Assembly (NCBI RefSeq): GCF_007859945.1
Contig: NZ_SJPQ01000002.1
Span: 908,279-972,278, forward strand
DNA from: Pseudobythopirellula maris
GTDB lineage: Bacteria > Planctomycetota > Planctomycetia > Pirellulales > Lacipirellulaceae
Length of the DNA stretch: 64,000 nt
Reading direction: 5' to 3'
Shown here: positions 31,156 through 37,119 of the stretch, piece by piece
How the letters are laid out: the number at the start of each line of letters is the position of its first letter
Numbering within the stretch: the stretch's first letter is position 1
Notes under the pieces: generated by a model
Seen by the model: only the letters and a program-made list of their open reading frames with translations
Databases searched by the model: none
Told to the model about the DNA's origin: nothing
Program-made: the position numbers and the translations under genes

Positions 31156-32244
<1,089 letters not shown>

Positions 32245-32329
32245 CCGCTTCCCCCGCCGGGCTAGAATAGAGAGGGTCGATGCCTCGGTTTACCACGAAC
32301 CTCTCCCAACCCTCGCGGGTCCCCCAGCC

Positions 32330-32590
32330 ATGGAACTACCCCTCACCCCCGACAGCGAGAAGTTGCTCAACGAACTGGTCGCCGGTGGCGGATACGCCTC
32401 CGAAGGCGAGGCGGTCTCGGCGGCGTTGCGAATGCTGCACGAGCGTACGGCCGGCAGAAGAAGCAACGTGAGTTTGACGAAAGAAGAAAAGCTGGAGCTA
32501 TTGAACAATAGCATCGATTCTCTTCCCAAGAGCAACGCACGCGATGTCGATACGAGCCGCGAGTCAATCTACGAAGGACGTGGTGAATGA
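32330..32590 (+). CDS. ParD-like antitoxin
   Basis: The 86-residue protein starts at ATG 32330. Its N-terminal part (LTPDSEKLLNELVAGGGYAS, then EGEAVSAALRMLHER) is the ribbon-helix-helix pattern of ParD/CopG antitoxins. The C-terminal half, KEEKLELLNNSIDSLPKS onward, is acidic and probably wraps the toxin. Its stop codon overlaps the start of the PIN toxin gene (ATGA), the usual arrangement for antitoxin-toxin translational coupling. It probably also represses the operon. Pairing ParD-type with a PIN toxin is uncommon compared with ParD-ParE. Confidence 0.8.
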   Translation: MELPLTPDSEKLLNELVAGGGYASEGEAVSAALRMLHERTAGRRSNVSLTKEEKLELLNNSIDSLPKSNARDVDTSRESIYEGRGE

Positions 32591-33045
32591 CGGTCCTTGT
32601 TGACACGAACGTGCTACTCCGTGTCAACCACGATGGCCACCCACAATCCGCAACCGCTCAAGAAACGATCTCGCGTCTTATCAACACTTCGCACGATCTG
32701 AGGACCGTGCCCCAAGTGCTGTATGAATACTGGGCGGTGGCGACCCGTCCTGTGGAATCTAATGGGCTTGGCTTCCCATCGTCCGTGGCGAATCGATGGC
32801 TTGTCGTGTGGGGCGATGTCTTCCCCACATTTCGCGATGAACGCGGCGTTCTCGATGAGTGGTGGAGGCTCGTGGTCGATCACGAGGTGAGCGGAAAAAC
32901 GACGCATGATGCGAGGCTCGTTGCCGCCATGATTCGCCACAGCGTCACGCATCTGCTGACCTTCAATGTCAGCGATTTCAAACGCTACGACGAGATCGTC
33001 GTCTTCTCACCTGATGCTTATCTTGCCGGCGAAGTCAGGTTGTGA
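32587..33045 (+). CDS. PIN domain toxin (VapC-like ribonuclease)
   Basis: The 152-residue protein carries the PIN-domain acidic residues: Asp in MTVLVDTNVLLR, Glu in QVLYEYWAVATR, Asp in THDARLVAAM and Asp in LLTFNVSDFKRY. PIN toxins are Mg2+-dependent RNases that cleave tRNA or rRNA. The ATG at 32587 overlaps the antitoxin stop. The codon usage and base composition look somewhat less GC-rich than flanking genes, consistent with an acquired module. RNA target unknown. Confidence 0.85.
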   Translation: MTVLVDTNVLLRVNHDGHPQSATAQETISRLINTSHDLRTVPQVLYEYWAVATRPVESNGLGFPSSVANRWLVVWGDVFPTFRDERGVLDEWWRLVVDHEVSGKTTHDARLVAAMIRHSVTHLLTFNVSDFKRYDEIVVFSPDAYLAGEVRL

Positions 33046-33070: not shown

Positions 33071-33391
33071 TCACCACGCGACCTGGTCTTCCATCATCCG
33101 CCGCGCCTCGGCGGCGGCTTCCTCCCAGTCGCCCGCTCGCGCCTTGGCGACCACGCCGCGCAGCCACCGCGCCTCGTGCGGAGCGAGCCGACCGGCGTCG
33201 GATTCCGTGGCGAGGTACGACTCGACCGCGTCGAGCTTGTCCTCCGCCCGCCGGTTGCAGACGTTGTAGAGCGACTTGGCGCCGTCGTACGCCGCGGGGC
33301 TGAGTCCCTCGTAGCCGCCGCAGCCGCTCGCCGCGAGCAGCAGCAACGCCGCGGCCATTCGGATTCGGGCGGTACTCGATTGGTGGCTCAT
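33071..33391 (-). CDS. Small lipoprotein co-transcribed with DUF1559 gene
   Basis: The 106-residue protein has a signal peptide with lipobox LAASGC (Cys24), then [21 protein letters not shown], and ends in an acidic/basic helical part ([18 protein letters not shown]). The helical part may pack as two or three helices. It starts inside the stop codon of the DUF1559 gene (ATGA overlap), so the two are translated together. The operon is preceded by MntR-like operators. I recognise no characterised family. Manganese- or iron-related envelope function is inference from the regulation alone. Confidence 0.8.
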
Positions 33392-34521
33392 AGCTCCTCG
33401 CTGACTTCTTGTTCGCCGATGCTGGAGTACTCCGCCCAGCGGAGCAGGTCGACACTGTCGGTGACGAATCGCACCGAGGCGTCGCCCAGGCAGACGTTGC
33501 CGCCGCCGAGGTGCTCGGCGTACATCTGGCCGACGTGGTACGTGGGAAAGTTCACCGGGTGGATGATCGGCAGCCCCGTGATGTCGAGCTCGCCGCCCGA
33601 GGGGCCGCCGTGCACCAGCACGAGCGTGGCCGCCGCGTCGGGGCCGTTCTCCGGCGAGGCGAACCGCGGGTGCGTGAACGCCCCCGGCACGACCCCGGCC
33701 CACGACTTGTCGGAGAGCGCCGAGGAGTGCTCGCCGAAGAAGATCGTCTGCGACAGACCGTCGGTCACGTCTTTGAAGCGGGTCTCCGAGTTGCGGTAGA
33801 ACGGTCCGTCGGCCACGAGCGACACGTCGCCGCCGTGCTCGACCTGCTCCGTGGCGCTGGTGTAGATGTTGGTGAAGACCGGCCCCGAGGCGGTGGCGCC
33901 GCACTCGCCCCAACACGACTCCTGGCCGTGGCTCGCCACGTAGTGCGAGCGGCCCAGCAGCACGGTCGAGCCGCCCCGCACGAGCGGGTCGCCCGCTTCG
34001 TCTTGGGCCTCGAACGGTTCGCGTGGGCCCGAAGACGAAGGGCAGAGCAAGCCGCTGATCGGCGCAGCGACCTGCGCCGCTTGGCTGTCGTCCCACAGCG
34101 ACAATTCCTTGTCGGTCGCTTGGCTCAGCGCGCCCTCCTCCACGTAGGGCAGCAAGTAGGCGTACCAGCCCCAGCCGGGCGGCGCGTCCCACGTGTCGGG
34201 GTCGCGCTCGGCGGGGGGCGGCGTGGCGAGCGAGCGCGAGGCGTAGCCGGGAGGCAGGCGGCGGATGGCGTCGTGGTGGTTGTGCGCCGCCAGGCCGATC
34301 TGCCTCAGCTGATTCGAGCACTGAGCACGGCGGGCCGCCTCGCGGGCGGTCTGCACCGCCGGCAGCAGCAAGGCGACGAGGATCCCGATGATCGCGATCA
34401 CCACGAGCAGCTCGACGAGCGTGAAACCGCCAAGCGCCGCGCGACAGCCGCCGGGGCGACGCCTCACGGCGCGTCTCGGGCTAGCCAAGGCCCAGCGGTT
34501 GAGAGAAGCTTGCTTCCACAT
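33388..34521 (-). CDS. DUF1559 protein with prepilin-type N-terminus, MntR-linked
   Basis: The 377-residue protein has the class III-like prepilin segment [20 protein letters not shown], then [20 protein letters not shown] and the DUF1559 body with [57 protein letters not shown] and a C-terminal [15 protein letters not shown]. The start ATG 34521 has AAGGAG (34531-34536) nine bases upstream, a strong Shine-Dalgarno. A sigma70-type promoter with two MntR-like palindromes lies 80-130 nt upstream, facing mntR. The small lipoprotein gene overlaps its stop. Expected role: pseudopilin-like, probably manganese- or iron-responsive. Confidence 0.9.
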
Positions 34522-34599
34522 CGATTGCAACTCCTTGCGGTGCGTAAGAGACGAACGGCACAGCCCGTTGCTGGCATGCCGCCTTCGAAGCACCGGATA

Positions 34600-34615
34600 T
34601 TTAGCCAGGGTTAAA
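34600..34615. promoter_or_regulatory. MntR-like operator, box 1
   Basis: TTTAGCC-AG-GGTTAAA is an imperfect palindrome (six of seven positions per half-site). It resembles box 2 and includes TAGC with a 4-nt spacer to GTTA. It lies at or just past the predicted start of transcription of the DUF1559 operon. Confidence 0.65.
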
Positions 34616-34624
34616 CCCCGGCCG

Positions 34625-34652
34625 ATTGTAGCCCAGGCTAAACCCGCGTCAA
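34625..34652 (-). promoter_or_regulatory. Sigma70-type promoter of the DUF1559-lipoprotein operon
   Basis: On the minus strand TTGACG (34652-34647) and TACAAT (34630-34625) are 16 bp apart, each with five of six consensus matches. The spacer is occupied by MntR-like box 2, so repressor binding would block RNA polymerase. Confidence 0.72.
34627..34642. promoter_or_regulatory. MntR-like operator, box 2
   Basis: TGTAGCC-CA-GGCTAAA is an imperfect palindrome with the core TAGC-N4-GCTA, the same core and spacing as the E. coli MntR box. Box 2 starts 27 nt after box 1 and overlaps the -10 and spacer of the promoter. The neighbouring gene encodes an MntR homologue. Confidence 0.7.
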
Positions 34653-34717
34653 CCGTTTTTTTCGACTAATCAAAACCTTGCTGCCGGGCGAGCTCGCCTG
34701 ACGCCCCAGACGCCCGC

Positions 34718-35152
34718 ATGGATGCCCCCGCCCCCCGACAATCGAAACGCTTCCGCCGCATCCGCGACGACCACGCCGCGGAGACCGCCGAGGACTACGT
34801 CGAGGCGATCGCCGAGTTGGCGCGCGACGAGGGGCAGTGCCGCGGCGCCGACCTGGCGCGGCACTTCGGTGTGAGCCACGTGACGGTCACTAAAACCGTC
34901 GCCCGGCTGGCTGCCGAGGGTCTGGTCGAGACCGAGCCATACCAGCCGATCGCGCTCACCAAGAAGGGCGAGCGGCTGGCCGAGGCGAGCCGCAAGCGGC
35001 ACGAGGTGGTGCTCGCCTTCCTGCTCGCCCTGGGCGTGGACGAGGCGACGGCTCAGGCCGACGCCGAGGGAATCGAGCACCACGTGAGTCCATCGACACT
35101 CAAGCGATTCAAGGCGTTTCTTGAAAACCAGCCCGACGGAGAGGCGGATTGA
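34718..35152 (+). CDS. mntR: Manganese-responsive regulator MntR (DtxR family)
   Basis: The 144-residue protein aligns by eye with E. coli MntR rather than with the longer iron regulators DtxR/IdeR. Shared blocks are AEDYVEAIAEL, the helix-turn-helix GADLARHFGVSHVTVTKTVARL, LTKKGERLAEASRKRHEVVLAFLLALGV and DAEGIEHHVSPSTL. The last block holds the metal-binding Glu and His pair. No SH3-like domain is present. It would bind palindromes when loaded with Mn2+. It is transcribed away from the DUF1559-lipoprotein operon, and two candidate operators lie between the genes. No mntH or mntP transporter is next to it. Confidence 0.9.
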   Translation: MDAPAPRQSKRFRRIRDDHAAETAEDYVEAIAELARDEGQCRGADLARHFGVSHVTVTKTVARLAAEGLVETEPYQPIALTKKGERLAEASRKRHEVVLAFLLALGVDEATAQADAEGIEHHVSPSTLKRFKAFLENQPDGEAD

Positions 35153-36039: not shown

Positions 36040-37119
36040 TCACTCCGCGGCGGCGGAGTGTTGGGCGCGGACGCGGCGGATCGCCTCGTCGATGCGGCGG
36101 ATGTTGTCCCAGTCGTCCTTGTAGTTGACGGCCACGAACTGCGCAGCGCCCGAGTCGGCGTACTTGGCCGCCACGCTCGAGCCTTCCCAGGCGAACGAGA
36201 GCAGGGCCTCGCGGATCGCGTCGCGCGTCGCGGCGGGCAGGTTGTGGGCGTAGCCGATCGTGGCCGGCGGGAAACGCTCCGAGTCGTAGATCACCTTGAA
36301 ATCATCCGTCGAGACCTCGCCGCTCGTGGTGAGCCGGTCGAGGATGTCGCTCGCCACCGGGGCGGCCGCCTCTTCGCCCGCCGCCACGGCGTGGATCGAC
36401 GTGACGTGGTCATAGGTAAAGCCCCATTGGTAGTCACGCTCGGGCAGCATCCCCTCGTCGTTCATCAGCTGCACCATCGCCGCCTTGAAGCCGGAGTTCG
36501 AGTCGGGCCGGGTGAAGGCGATCTTCTTGCCGCGCAGGTCGCCCAGGCCCTCGGCCTTGCTGTCCTTCGAGACGATCAGCTTCATGCGGTAGCCGTACTC
36601 CCCAGCGGCGTCGCCGAACGTGCAGACCGGCGTGAAGCCGACGTTGGCCACGGCCGTCGGCACGGCGCCGGTGTTCACGCCGATCACGTGGACCTCGTCG
36701 CGCGCCATCGCGGCGAACTGCTCGCCGGTGGTCTCGTAGTGGGCGTACTCGACCGGCAGGCCGGTCGCCTCGGAGATCGCCGTGGTCACGTCGGCCCACA
36801 CCTCGGCGGCGTCTTCCGGCTCGGGCGAGGCGATGTACGAGAACACCAGCCGCTCGGGCGCCGCGGCGGCCTCTCCGTCAGCGGGTTCGGCCGGCGGGTC
36901 GTTCACCAGGTCGTGGTCGGCGTCGCTGAAGGGGACGGTCTCTTCGGGAAGCTGCACCGCCTCGCCCATCAGGCGGGCGAGCATGTTGTCCTCCATCTCC
37001 TTCTGAGCGGCCCGCTCGTAGCCGGGCAGCGTGAAGCGGATTCCCACCGCTAGCAGCAGCACCGGCAGCAAGATCTTGAGCAAACGTCCGAAGGAAAAGG
37101 CGCCGGGGTCAGCACTCAT
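36040..37119 (-). CDS. PhnD-like substrate-binding protein, membrane-anchored
   Basis: The 359-residue protein has one N-terminal helix (about 12-30), a spacer to about 85, then a periplasmic-binding fold like PhnD/SsuA/transferrin family proteins. Typical blocks are RLVFSYIASPEPEDAAEVWADV, VHVIGVNTGAVPTAV, LIVSKDSKAEGLGDLRGKKIAFTRPDSNSG (in parts) and FTYDHVTSIHAVAAGEE. PhnD-like proteins bind phosphonates, phosphite or related oxyanions. The usual permease and ATPase genes are missing nearby, and the protein is membrane-tethered, so it may sense rather than import. Ligand is unknown. Confidence 0.85.
   Translation of the reverse strand: MSADPGAFSFGRLLKILLPVLLLAVGIRFTLPGYERAAQKEMEDNMLARLMGEAVQLPEETVPFSDADHDLVNDPPAEPADGEAAAAPERLVFSYIASPEPEDAAEVWADVTTAISEATGLPVEYAHYETTGEQFAAMARDEVHVIGVNTGAVPTAVANVGFTPVCTFGDAAGEYGYRMKLIVSKDSKAEGLGDLRGKKIAFTRPDSNSGFKAAMVQLMNDEGMLPERDYQWGFTYDHVTSIHAVAAGEEAAAPVASDILDRLTTSGEVSTDDFKVIYDSERFPPATIGYAHNLPAATRDAIREALLSFAWEGSSVAAKYADSGAAQFVAVNYKDDWDNIRRIDEAIRRVRAQHSAAAE

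Follow-up and report, generated by a model that had tools for sequence, protein, structure and literature searches.

Several described systems resemble the locus reported here. The MntR regulon of Escherichia coli shares with it the type of regulator (NCBIfam PRK11050) and the TAGC-N4-GCTA core of the operators. Upstream of E. coli mntS, two palindromes, TATAGCACAGGCTATA and TATAGCTATTGCTAAA, match TNTAGCN4GCTANA exactly, and one upstream of mntH, CATAGCCTTTGCTATG, departs from it at two positions outside the core; we take these palindromes to be the E. coli MntR sites. For Bacillus subtilis MntR, the portion of the source used here gives six Mn ligands, Asp8, Glu11, His77, Glu99, Glu102, and His103 (PMC9861239). 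The TBDR-pTFP module of Stenotrophomonas, as far as it is described in the excerpts used, is an MntR-linked extracytoplasmic two-gene locus beside mntR with the box between the −10 and −35 elements, and a metal-acquisition role has been proposed for it (PMC13217887). In T. denticola, the TroABCD/TroR system resembles the present one in its TroA-type ABC importer, DtxR-family repressor, sigma70-like promoter, and dyad, according to extracts of PMC2628430. Finally, DUF1559 (SBP_bac_10, PF07596) is a large family with N-methylation and H-X9-DG motifs, as here, to which a general solute-binding or stress-response role in Planctomycetes is given in the sections used of PMC2754498 and PMC10632474; in the latter, its 68 members, two of them essential, make up the largest group of paralogs in Planctopirus limnophila, and it is listed as of 'unknown function'.

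Here we analysed a locus in a 64,000-nucleotide stretch of the genome of the planctomycete Pseudobythopirellula maris (the window), where two MntR-type palindromes lie between mntR and a divergent operon that encodes a DUF1559 protein and a small lipoprotein. Our reading, to which we give a probability of roughly 60%, is that Mn-loaded MntR represses a pseudopilin-lipoprotein pair that helps to capture Mn outside the cytoplasm.

Results

The initial annotation had assigned the adjoining regulator to MntR rather than DtxR, and profile searches agree: the mntR product scored 183.7 bits against the MntR model PRK11050 (cut-off 153) and 32.4 bits against the DtxR model. In an ungapped alignment, its residues D26, E29, H95, E117, E120, and H121 fall on the B. 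subtilis ligand positions. The operon divergent from mntR (Table 1) begins with a protein that scored 170 bits against PF07596 (gathering cut-off 23.3) and carries both the N-methylation motif (PF07963, 22.8 vs. a cut-off of 21.2; TIGR02532, 24.1 vs. 16.3) and the H-X9-DG C-terminal motif (TIGR04294, 25.8 vs. 19). The start of the small lipoprotein gene overlaps the DUF1559 stop codon (ATGA); its product has a lipobox-like Cys, as judged by eye, and matched nothing in Pfam or NCBIfam at E ≤ 0.001. Two other features of the neighborhood were recorded: near mntR, a gene for a periplasmic binding protein of the phosphonate type (36040-37119, minus strand), and, past the operon end, two small open reading frames (32222-33045, plus strand) that resemble, by eye, an antitoxin gene and a gene for a PIN-domain toxin.

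Table 1. Features of the mntR-DUF1559 locus (window coordinates) and the second-operator sequence
Feature	Position	Strand	Remarks
Small membrane-anchored protein gene	33071..33391	minus	106 aa; lipobox-like; predicted four-helix
DUF1559 (PF07596) protein gene	33388..34521	minus	prepilin N-methylation motif; MntR-linked clade with H265, H304, H321, H329, E311
MntR box 1, TTTAGCCAGGGTTAAA	34600..34615		just 3' of the DUF1559 −10 element
−10 hexamer TACAAT of the DUF1559 operon	34625..34630	minus	16-nt spacer to −35
MntR box 2, TGTAGCCCAGGCTAAA	34627..34642		in the −35/−10 spacer, overlaps −10
−35 hexamer TTGACG of the DUF1559 operon	34647..34652	minus	sigma70-like site scan
One-mismatch copy of the second operator, TTTTGATTAGTCGAAA vs. 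TTTTGA-N4-TCAAAA	34660..34675	minus	upstream of −35
mntR, E. coli-type manganese-sensing regulator	34718..35152	plus	NCBIfam PRK11050; six ligand positions conserved
Second-operator sequence for MntR-less species, TTTTGATTAATCAAAA			

The initial annotation had further described two 16-nt palindromes between mntR and the operon, 27 nt apart, the second with an E. coli-type TAGC-N4-GCTA core and placed between a TTGACG and a TACAAT spaced by 16 nt on the minus strand, the first near the predicted start site. All of these elements were found as described. The starts of boxes 1 and 2 are 27 nt apart; box 2 matches TNTAGCN4GCTANA exactly and box 1 with one mismatch. A scan of 34450-34800 for sigma70-like sites returned a single one, TTGACG-16-TACAAT (34652-34625, minus strand; 0.0 on average in shuffled sequence, sd 0.1). 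Box 2 fills the −35/−10 spacer and has TACA in common with the −10 element, and box 1, just downstream of that element, falls a few nucleotides past the likely start site.

We then searched for the joint motif TTTAGCCnnGGCTAAA. Within the window it has two matches at up to three mismatches, boxes 1 and 2, each with one mismatch. Across the 5.07-Mb genome, 61 places match at up to three mismatches, none of them exactly and only boxes 1 and 2 with a single mismatch, and the stricter TKTAGCN4GCTAMA occurs exactly at one place only, box 2. This genome has 59 PF07596 matches (58 above the cut-off) and one place with exact or one-mismatch MntR boxes. When the window was shuffled 100 times, 16 of the shuffled versions had at least two matches to TTTAGCCnnGGCTAAA at up to three mismatches, so the pair of boxes is only moderately unusual when judged by the window alone, and the case rests on the comparison of genomes.

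In an order-level set of 196 genomes, 80 had a DtxR-type match; 47 of these, the genome of the window included, were taken as carrying MntR (48 places, E ≤ 1.4e-36), and the other 33, with weaker DtxR-like matches only, were not counted as MntR. A TNTAGCN4GCTANA box with at most one mismatch lies within 450 nt upstream of mntR at 35 of the 48 loci and was not found there at this threshold at 13; these and the following counts run over related genomes and are not independent. A DUF1559 ortholog stands upstream of mntR on the opposite strand at 29 of the 48 loci, the lipoprotein being detected at 26 of them. At ten loci, a TroA-type operon of substrate-binding protein (SBP), ATPase, and permease takes the place of DUF1559 next to mntR (nine divergent, and one, L052, downstream of mntR), and at nine neither was found near mntR, the available stretch being short in some (322 nt upstream at L079). 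At five of these 29 loci (five of the 48 overall), SBP and ATPase genes come after the DUF1559-lipoprotein pair, with permease genes as well where the stretch reaches that far; at two of these five (L038 and L040), another gene precedes the pair. At L038, L040, and L049, the first of the genes divergent from mntR encodes a relative of the PF13557 protein of L038 (L038:5687-6601), presumably of an outer-membrane type, and lies ahead of DUF1559 and/or the importer. Separately, a second short DtxR/MntR-like gene is divergent from mntR at L083 (L083:6696-7160) and L041.

To follow the pair beyond mntR, a lipoprotein profile (A1) was made from 27 sequences of mntR-adjoining loci. Of 392 genomes from the phylum, 34 gave a match, in the same order and elsewhere in the class, with 35 lipoprotein places in all, of which 30 loci were examined. 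DUF1559 adjoins the lipoprotein gene at all 30 of these loci, which were picked by lipoprotein similarity (the window locus included). Of the 34 lipoprotein-bearing genomes, 17 have an MntR that scored above the NCBIfam cut-off, and 17 of the 30 loci were counted as belonging to MntR-positive genomes, among them G419, where a contig end interrupts the MntR match; the genome of the window and G053 are present in both the mntR set and the lipoprotein set. A box with at most one mismatch was found upstream of DUF1559 at 13 of the 17 loci with MntR versus none of the 13 without (Fisher p = 2.2e-5, relatedness ignored). The four MntR-positive exceptions (L150, L155, L158, and L159) have two-mismatch boxes in the promoter. 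Two loci found by DUF1559 similarity are consistent with this pattern: at L174, where mntR lies in tandem about 470 nt upstream, DUF1559 is preceded by two exact boxes, and at L175 by an exact operator of the second type described below. Two more distant matches, L176 and L177, have neither an MntR box nor that operator. The TAGC-N4-GCTA palindrome is thus a promoter element whose occurrence is tied to the presence of MntR.

The promoter anatomy was compared over 61 orthologous upstream regions, the window included (orthologs at E ≤ 1e-60 among 80 loci). A box with at most one mismatch lies upstream of 39 of the 61 DUF1559 orthologs, compared with 1.15% of mononucleotide shuffles. In 39 of the 61, the end of a box (up to two mismatches) forms the −10 element with a −35 element 15-19 nt before it, each with at most two mismatches, an arrangement seen in 0.77% of shuffles; the −10 variants at this place are TACAAT, TAAAAT, TACACT, or similar. 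Two boxes (up to two mismatches) stand 24-34 nt apart in 40 of the 61 promoters. The initial annotation had proposed scanning other planctomycete genomes for the boxes, and had named their absence upstream of orthologous operons as an outcome that would speak against it; as the counts of 35/48 before mntR and 39/61 before DUF1559 show, they recur at both. In genus g104 (L145, L147, L148, and L149), we also noted a third MntR-like box, TACT-ended on the operon strand, downstream of the pair.

These comparisons bear on three other explanations of the boxes. That the palindromes arose by chance, as the window shuffles would still allow, is contradicted by their conservation over 61 orthologs and their dependence on MntR, and we regard it as negligible. 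A second possibility is that the boxes serve autoregulation of mntR only, with the divergent operon as a bystander; the 35 of 48 mntR loci with a box upstream of the regulator would suit it. However, box and DUF1559-lipoprotein operon also occur together away from mntR (G091, locus L093; G129, locus L110), boxes precede DUF1559 at loci that were selected through the lipoprotein, some with mntR far off by coordinates (for example, G374 and G430), and at the window locus a box sits within the spacer of the DUF1559 promoter, which makes this explanation very improbable. Thirdly, MntR might activate the operon at high Mn, the pair then handling Mn excess by export or sequestration. B. subtilis MntR can activate exporter genes, according to the extract used of PMC11275975, but boxes in the −35/−10 spacer and over the start region have the layout of repressor sites, and an importer shares the operon with the pair in some genomes; we consider activation very unlikely. 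Control of the DUF1559-lipoprotein operon by MntR is, on this sequence evidence, highly probable.

Where MntR is lacking, a different palindrome appears. TTTTGA-N4-TCAAAA, with at most one mismatch, lies at the DUF1559 promoter of 11 of the 13 MntR-less loci. It is present in 13 of the 61 upstream regions, compared with 0.07% of shuffles; two of these also have an MntR box (L039 and the window, Table 1) and 11 do not. Another 11 of the 61 regions have neither the MntR box nor this second operator. The exact sequence was found in 19 of 22 whole genomes searched, in one or two copies in 17 of the 19, and the reversed control sequence matched in one. Judged by position, an exact copy stands before the importer in 11 of the 22 genomes (that of the window included) and before the DUF1559 operon in ten; for the 16 MntR-less genomes searched, the numbers are nine and ten. 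Five genomes (G083, G088, G474, G512, and G558) have it at both the importer and the DUF1559 operon, the DUF1559-operon sites of G083 and G558 being placed by comparing coordinates. In 56 further genomes, the second operator was present in 27, and, by coordinates, directly upstream of the importer SBP in eight (the importer was searched in 17 of the 27); G053, which has no second operator, belongs both to this set and to the importer-search set of 47 genomes. The genome of the window has a single exact copy (C1:492558-492573), upstream of a ZnuA/TroA-type ABC operon. Eight genomes of g104 carry it six to nine times each, and three such places that were looked at (L295, L296, and L317) are not at an importer or DUF1559 operon, so that the second operator is not specific in this genus.

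By eye, no DtxR- or Fur-like gene was recognised beside the second operator in the open reading frames around ten sites. Outside the window, the same genome encodes a second, longer DtxR-type protein (C2:226870-227280, within a 260-aa open frame), a possible reader of the TTTTGA operator. The pattern is that of a regulator swap, in which one and the same pair of target genes is preceded by MntR boxes in some lineages and by another type of operator elsewhere.

The metal of the importer was approached through L062 (genome G058), whose importer proteins match ZnuA, ABC_tran, and ABC-3 in Pfam. By NCBIfam, the SBP scored highest against AztC, a zinc model (202 bits), followed by MntC (171 bits), both below the cut-off, and the ATPase scored best with an Mn model, again below the cut-off; these scores leave Mn versus Zn undecided. 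A tblastn search found no importer within 15 kb around mntR of the window. The importer of this genome has no MntR box at up to one mismatch and has the second operator instead, so MntR is not obviously in control of both the importer and the DUF1559 operon there. Two domain fusions were seen in passing. Both importer permeases of L062 (L062:8429-9808 and L062:9805-11148) are ABC-3 proteins fused to a C-terminal PF02742, the DtxR-type metal-binding and dimerisation domain, and genes for PF02742-FeoA fusion proteins occur at L091:1599-2621 and L100:320-1489 with exact MntR boxes nearby, that of L091 being followed by a gene that reads by eye like FeoB.

The operon could be one for zinc or iron, in which the TTTTGA regulator would be of a Zur/Fur or long DtxR type, the importer ZnuABC-like, and MntR control a lineage-specific add-on. 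The AztC score of the L062 SBP and the importer of the window genome, with its TTTTGA operator only, favor this possibility. Against it, all six Mn-ligand positions of MntR are conserved in the regulator that adjoins the operon, boxes with at most one mismatch precede the importer beside mntR at eight of the ten importer-only loci, and the top score of the L062 ATPase, though below the cut-off, is with the Mn model. We judge a zinc or iron operon unlikely, though worth keeping in view, and retain manganese, or a mixed-metal pool, as the preferred assignment.

We then compared the DUF1559 proteins themselves. One alignment (A2, 29 rows) left out L111 and L076 because of stops (in the translation and near the start, respectively), L061 because of unread bases, and L078 as a short paralog, and alignment A3 left out L211 (stop), one row of L218, L237, and two rows of L238. 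In a FastTree tree of the 61 orthologs and 108 other DUF1559 proteins, the 61 plus L174 form one group with support 1.0. H265, H304, H321, H329, and Q332 are present in all 61 orthologs, and E311 and D112 in 60 of the 61 each. Among the 108 others, H265 occurs in one, H304 in four, H321 in three, H329 in eight, and E311 in ten; all four His occur in only one, L174, which groups with the clade, and one other protein has two. The clade is thus marked by conserved residues of metal-ligand type (His and Glu).

Structure models were obtained for both proteins. For the DUF1559 protein, the AlphaFold2 input consisted of two sequences at least 60% identical to each other, plus paralogs, and the model has a long N-terminal helix (residues 35-86) and a mixed C-terminal part; the clade-specific segment 292-329, which holds H304, H321, and H329, has pLDDT below 50. 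Compared with solved chains (VIA-align 2), pilins are the nearest to this model, weakly (Z ≤ 4.3), and Foldseek gave no match at E ≤ 0.001. A sequence search of solved structures with the DUF1559 protein matched pilin-type chains in the N-terminal region at E < 0.001. The lipoprotein is modelled with confidence as four helices (residues 31-100, block pLDDT 95-98), likewise with no Foldseek match at E ≤ 0.001, and the lipoprotein alignment shows no conserved His or acidic ligand set.

The pair might be part of the envelope or an adhesion device, for example, a surface pseudopilus for attachment that is switched on under Mn shortage and binds no metal itself. The N-methylation motif, the weak pilin-like matches, and the lack, in the literature searched, of any report tying other DUF1559 proteins to a metal are compatible with such a function. 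It would leave unexplained, however, why the four His are found in 61 of 61 clade members versus one of 108 others, that one grouping with the clade, and why the pair lies ahead of the importer at five of the 48 mntR loci and has the second operator in common with it in five genomes. An adhesion role seems unlikely to us, and metal acquisition remains the preferred function of the pair.

Discussion

We propose the following sequence of events. When Mn is plentiful, Mn-loaded MntR dimers would bind both palindromes and cover the −35/−10 spacer, the −10 element, and the region just past the start, so that transcription of the DUF1559-lipoprotein operon would be off. When Mn is scarce, MntR would be released and the operon expressed. 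The DUF1559 protein would be pilin-like and held by its N-terminal helix, its clade-specific His and acidic residues probably forming a metal site in the extracytoplasmic domain, and the small lipoprotein would be its helical partner. Outside the cytoplasm, the two would together probably help to capture Mn, or a mixed Mn/Zn/Fe pool, for a TroA-type ABC importer. Metal-dependent binding, the repressive sign of control, and the partnership of the two proteins are what we infer from the arrangement of operators and genes.

The steps differ in how firmly they can be held. Because the pair stands beside mntR, ahead of a TroA-type importer in some genomes, and has two unrelated operator types in common with it, acquisition of Mn or mixed metal is its most likely role, and we lean slightly towards a function in uptake. 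Direct metal binding by the DUF1559 protein, as suggested by the histidine signature, is a tentative proposal that we hold at a little under even odds. More speculative is the idea that the MntR-linked clade acts in metal capture as a pilin-type protein, in the form of a pseudopilus or a membrane-tethered pseudopilin, which with the helical lipoprotein would bind Mn outside the cytoplasm and feed the TroA importer; we think this specific form improbable, and we know of no described system with such an acquisition route for trace metals. The recurrence of the MntR-box arrangement in related Planctomycetes nevertheless points to a probable manganese-acquisition job for one branch of DUF1559, and one member of this family becomes directly testable, since the clade has a defined set of operators, a partner gene, and a candidate site for metal.

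How does the locus compare with the systems described? The targets of the E. coli regulon are a permease or MntS, whereas here they are a pilin-like protein and a small lipoprotein. Unlike the TroABCD/TroR system, the present one has a DUF1559-lipoprotein pair ahead of the importer (five of 48 mntR loci) or an operator type in common with it. For the lipoprotein model, the top Foldseek match is SMBP, a small metal-binding protein of Nitrosomonas (PDB 3u8v; probability 0.93, TM 0.49/0.60), but its E-value of 0.94 is non-significant and the lipoprotein has no conserved His, so we treat it as a lead only. The portions of the DUF1559/SBP_bac_10 literature used here (PMC2754498 and PMC10632474) deal with solute binding and stress, whereas the clade described above is set apart by a histidine signature of its own and by operators of a metal type; our searches of the open-licence PubMed Central literature, MntR in Planctomycetes included, found no link between DUF1559 and a metal. 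The nearest published parallel that we found, by comparison of descriptions and on the excerpts used of PMC13217887, is the Stenotrophomonas TBDR-pTFP locus, in which the two genes encode a TonB receptor and a thioredoxin-fold protein in place of a DUF1559 pseudopilin and a helical lipoprotein. Taken together, regulation by MntR is known already, and what appears to be new is the DUF1559-lipoprotein operon as its target and, with it, a link of DUF1559 to metal.
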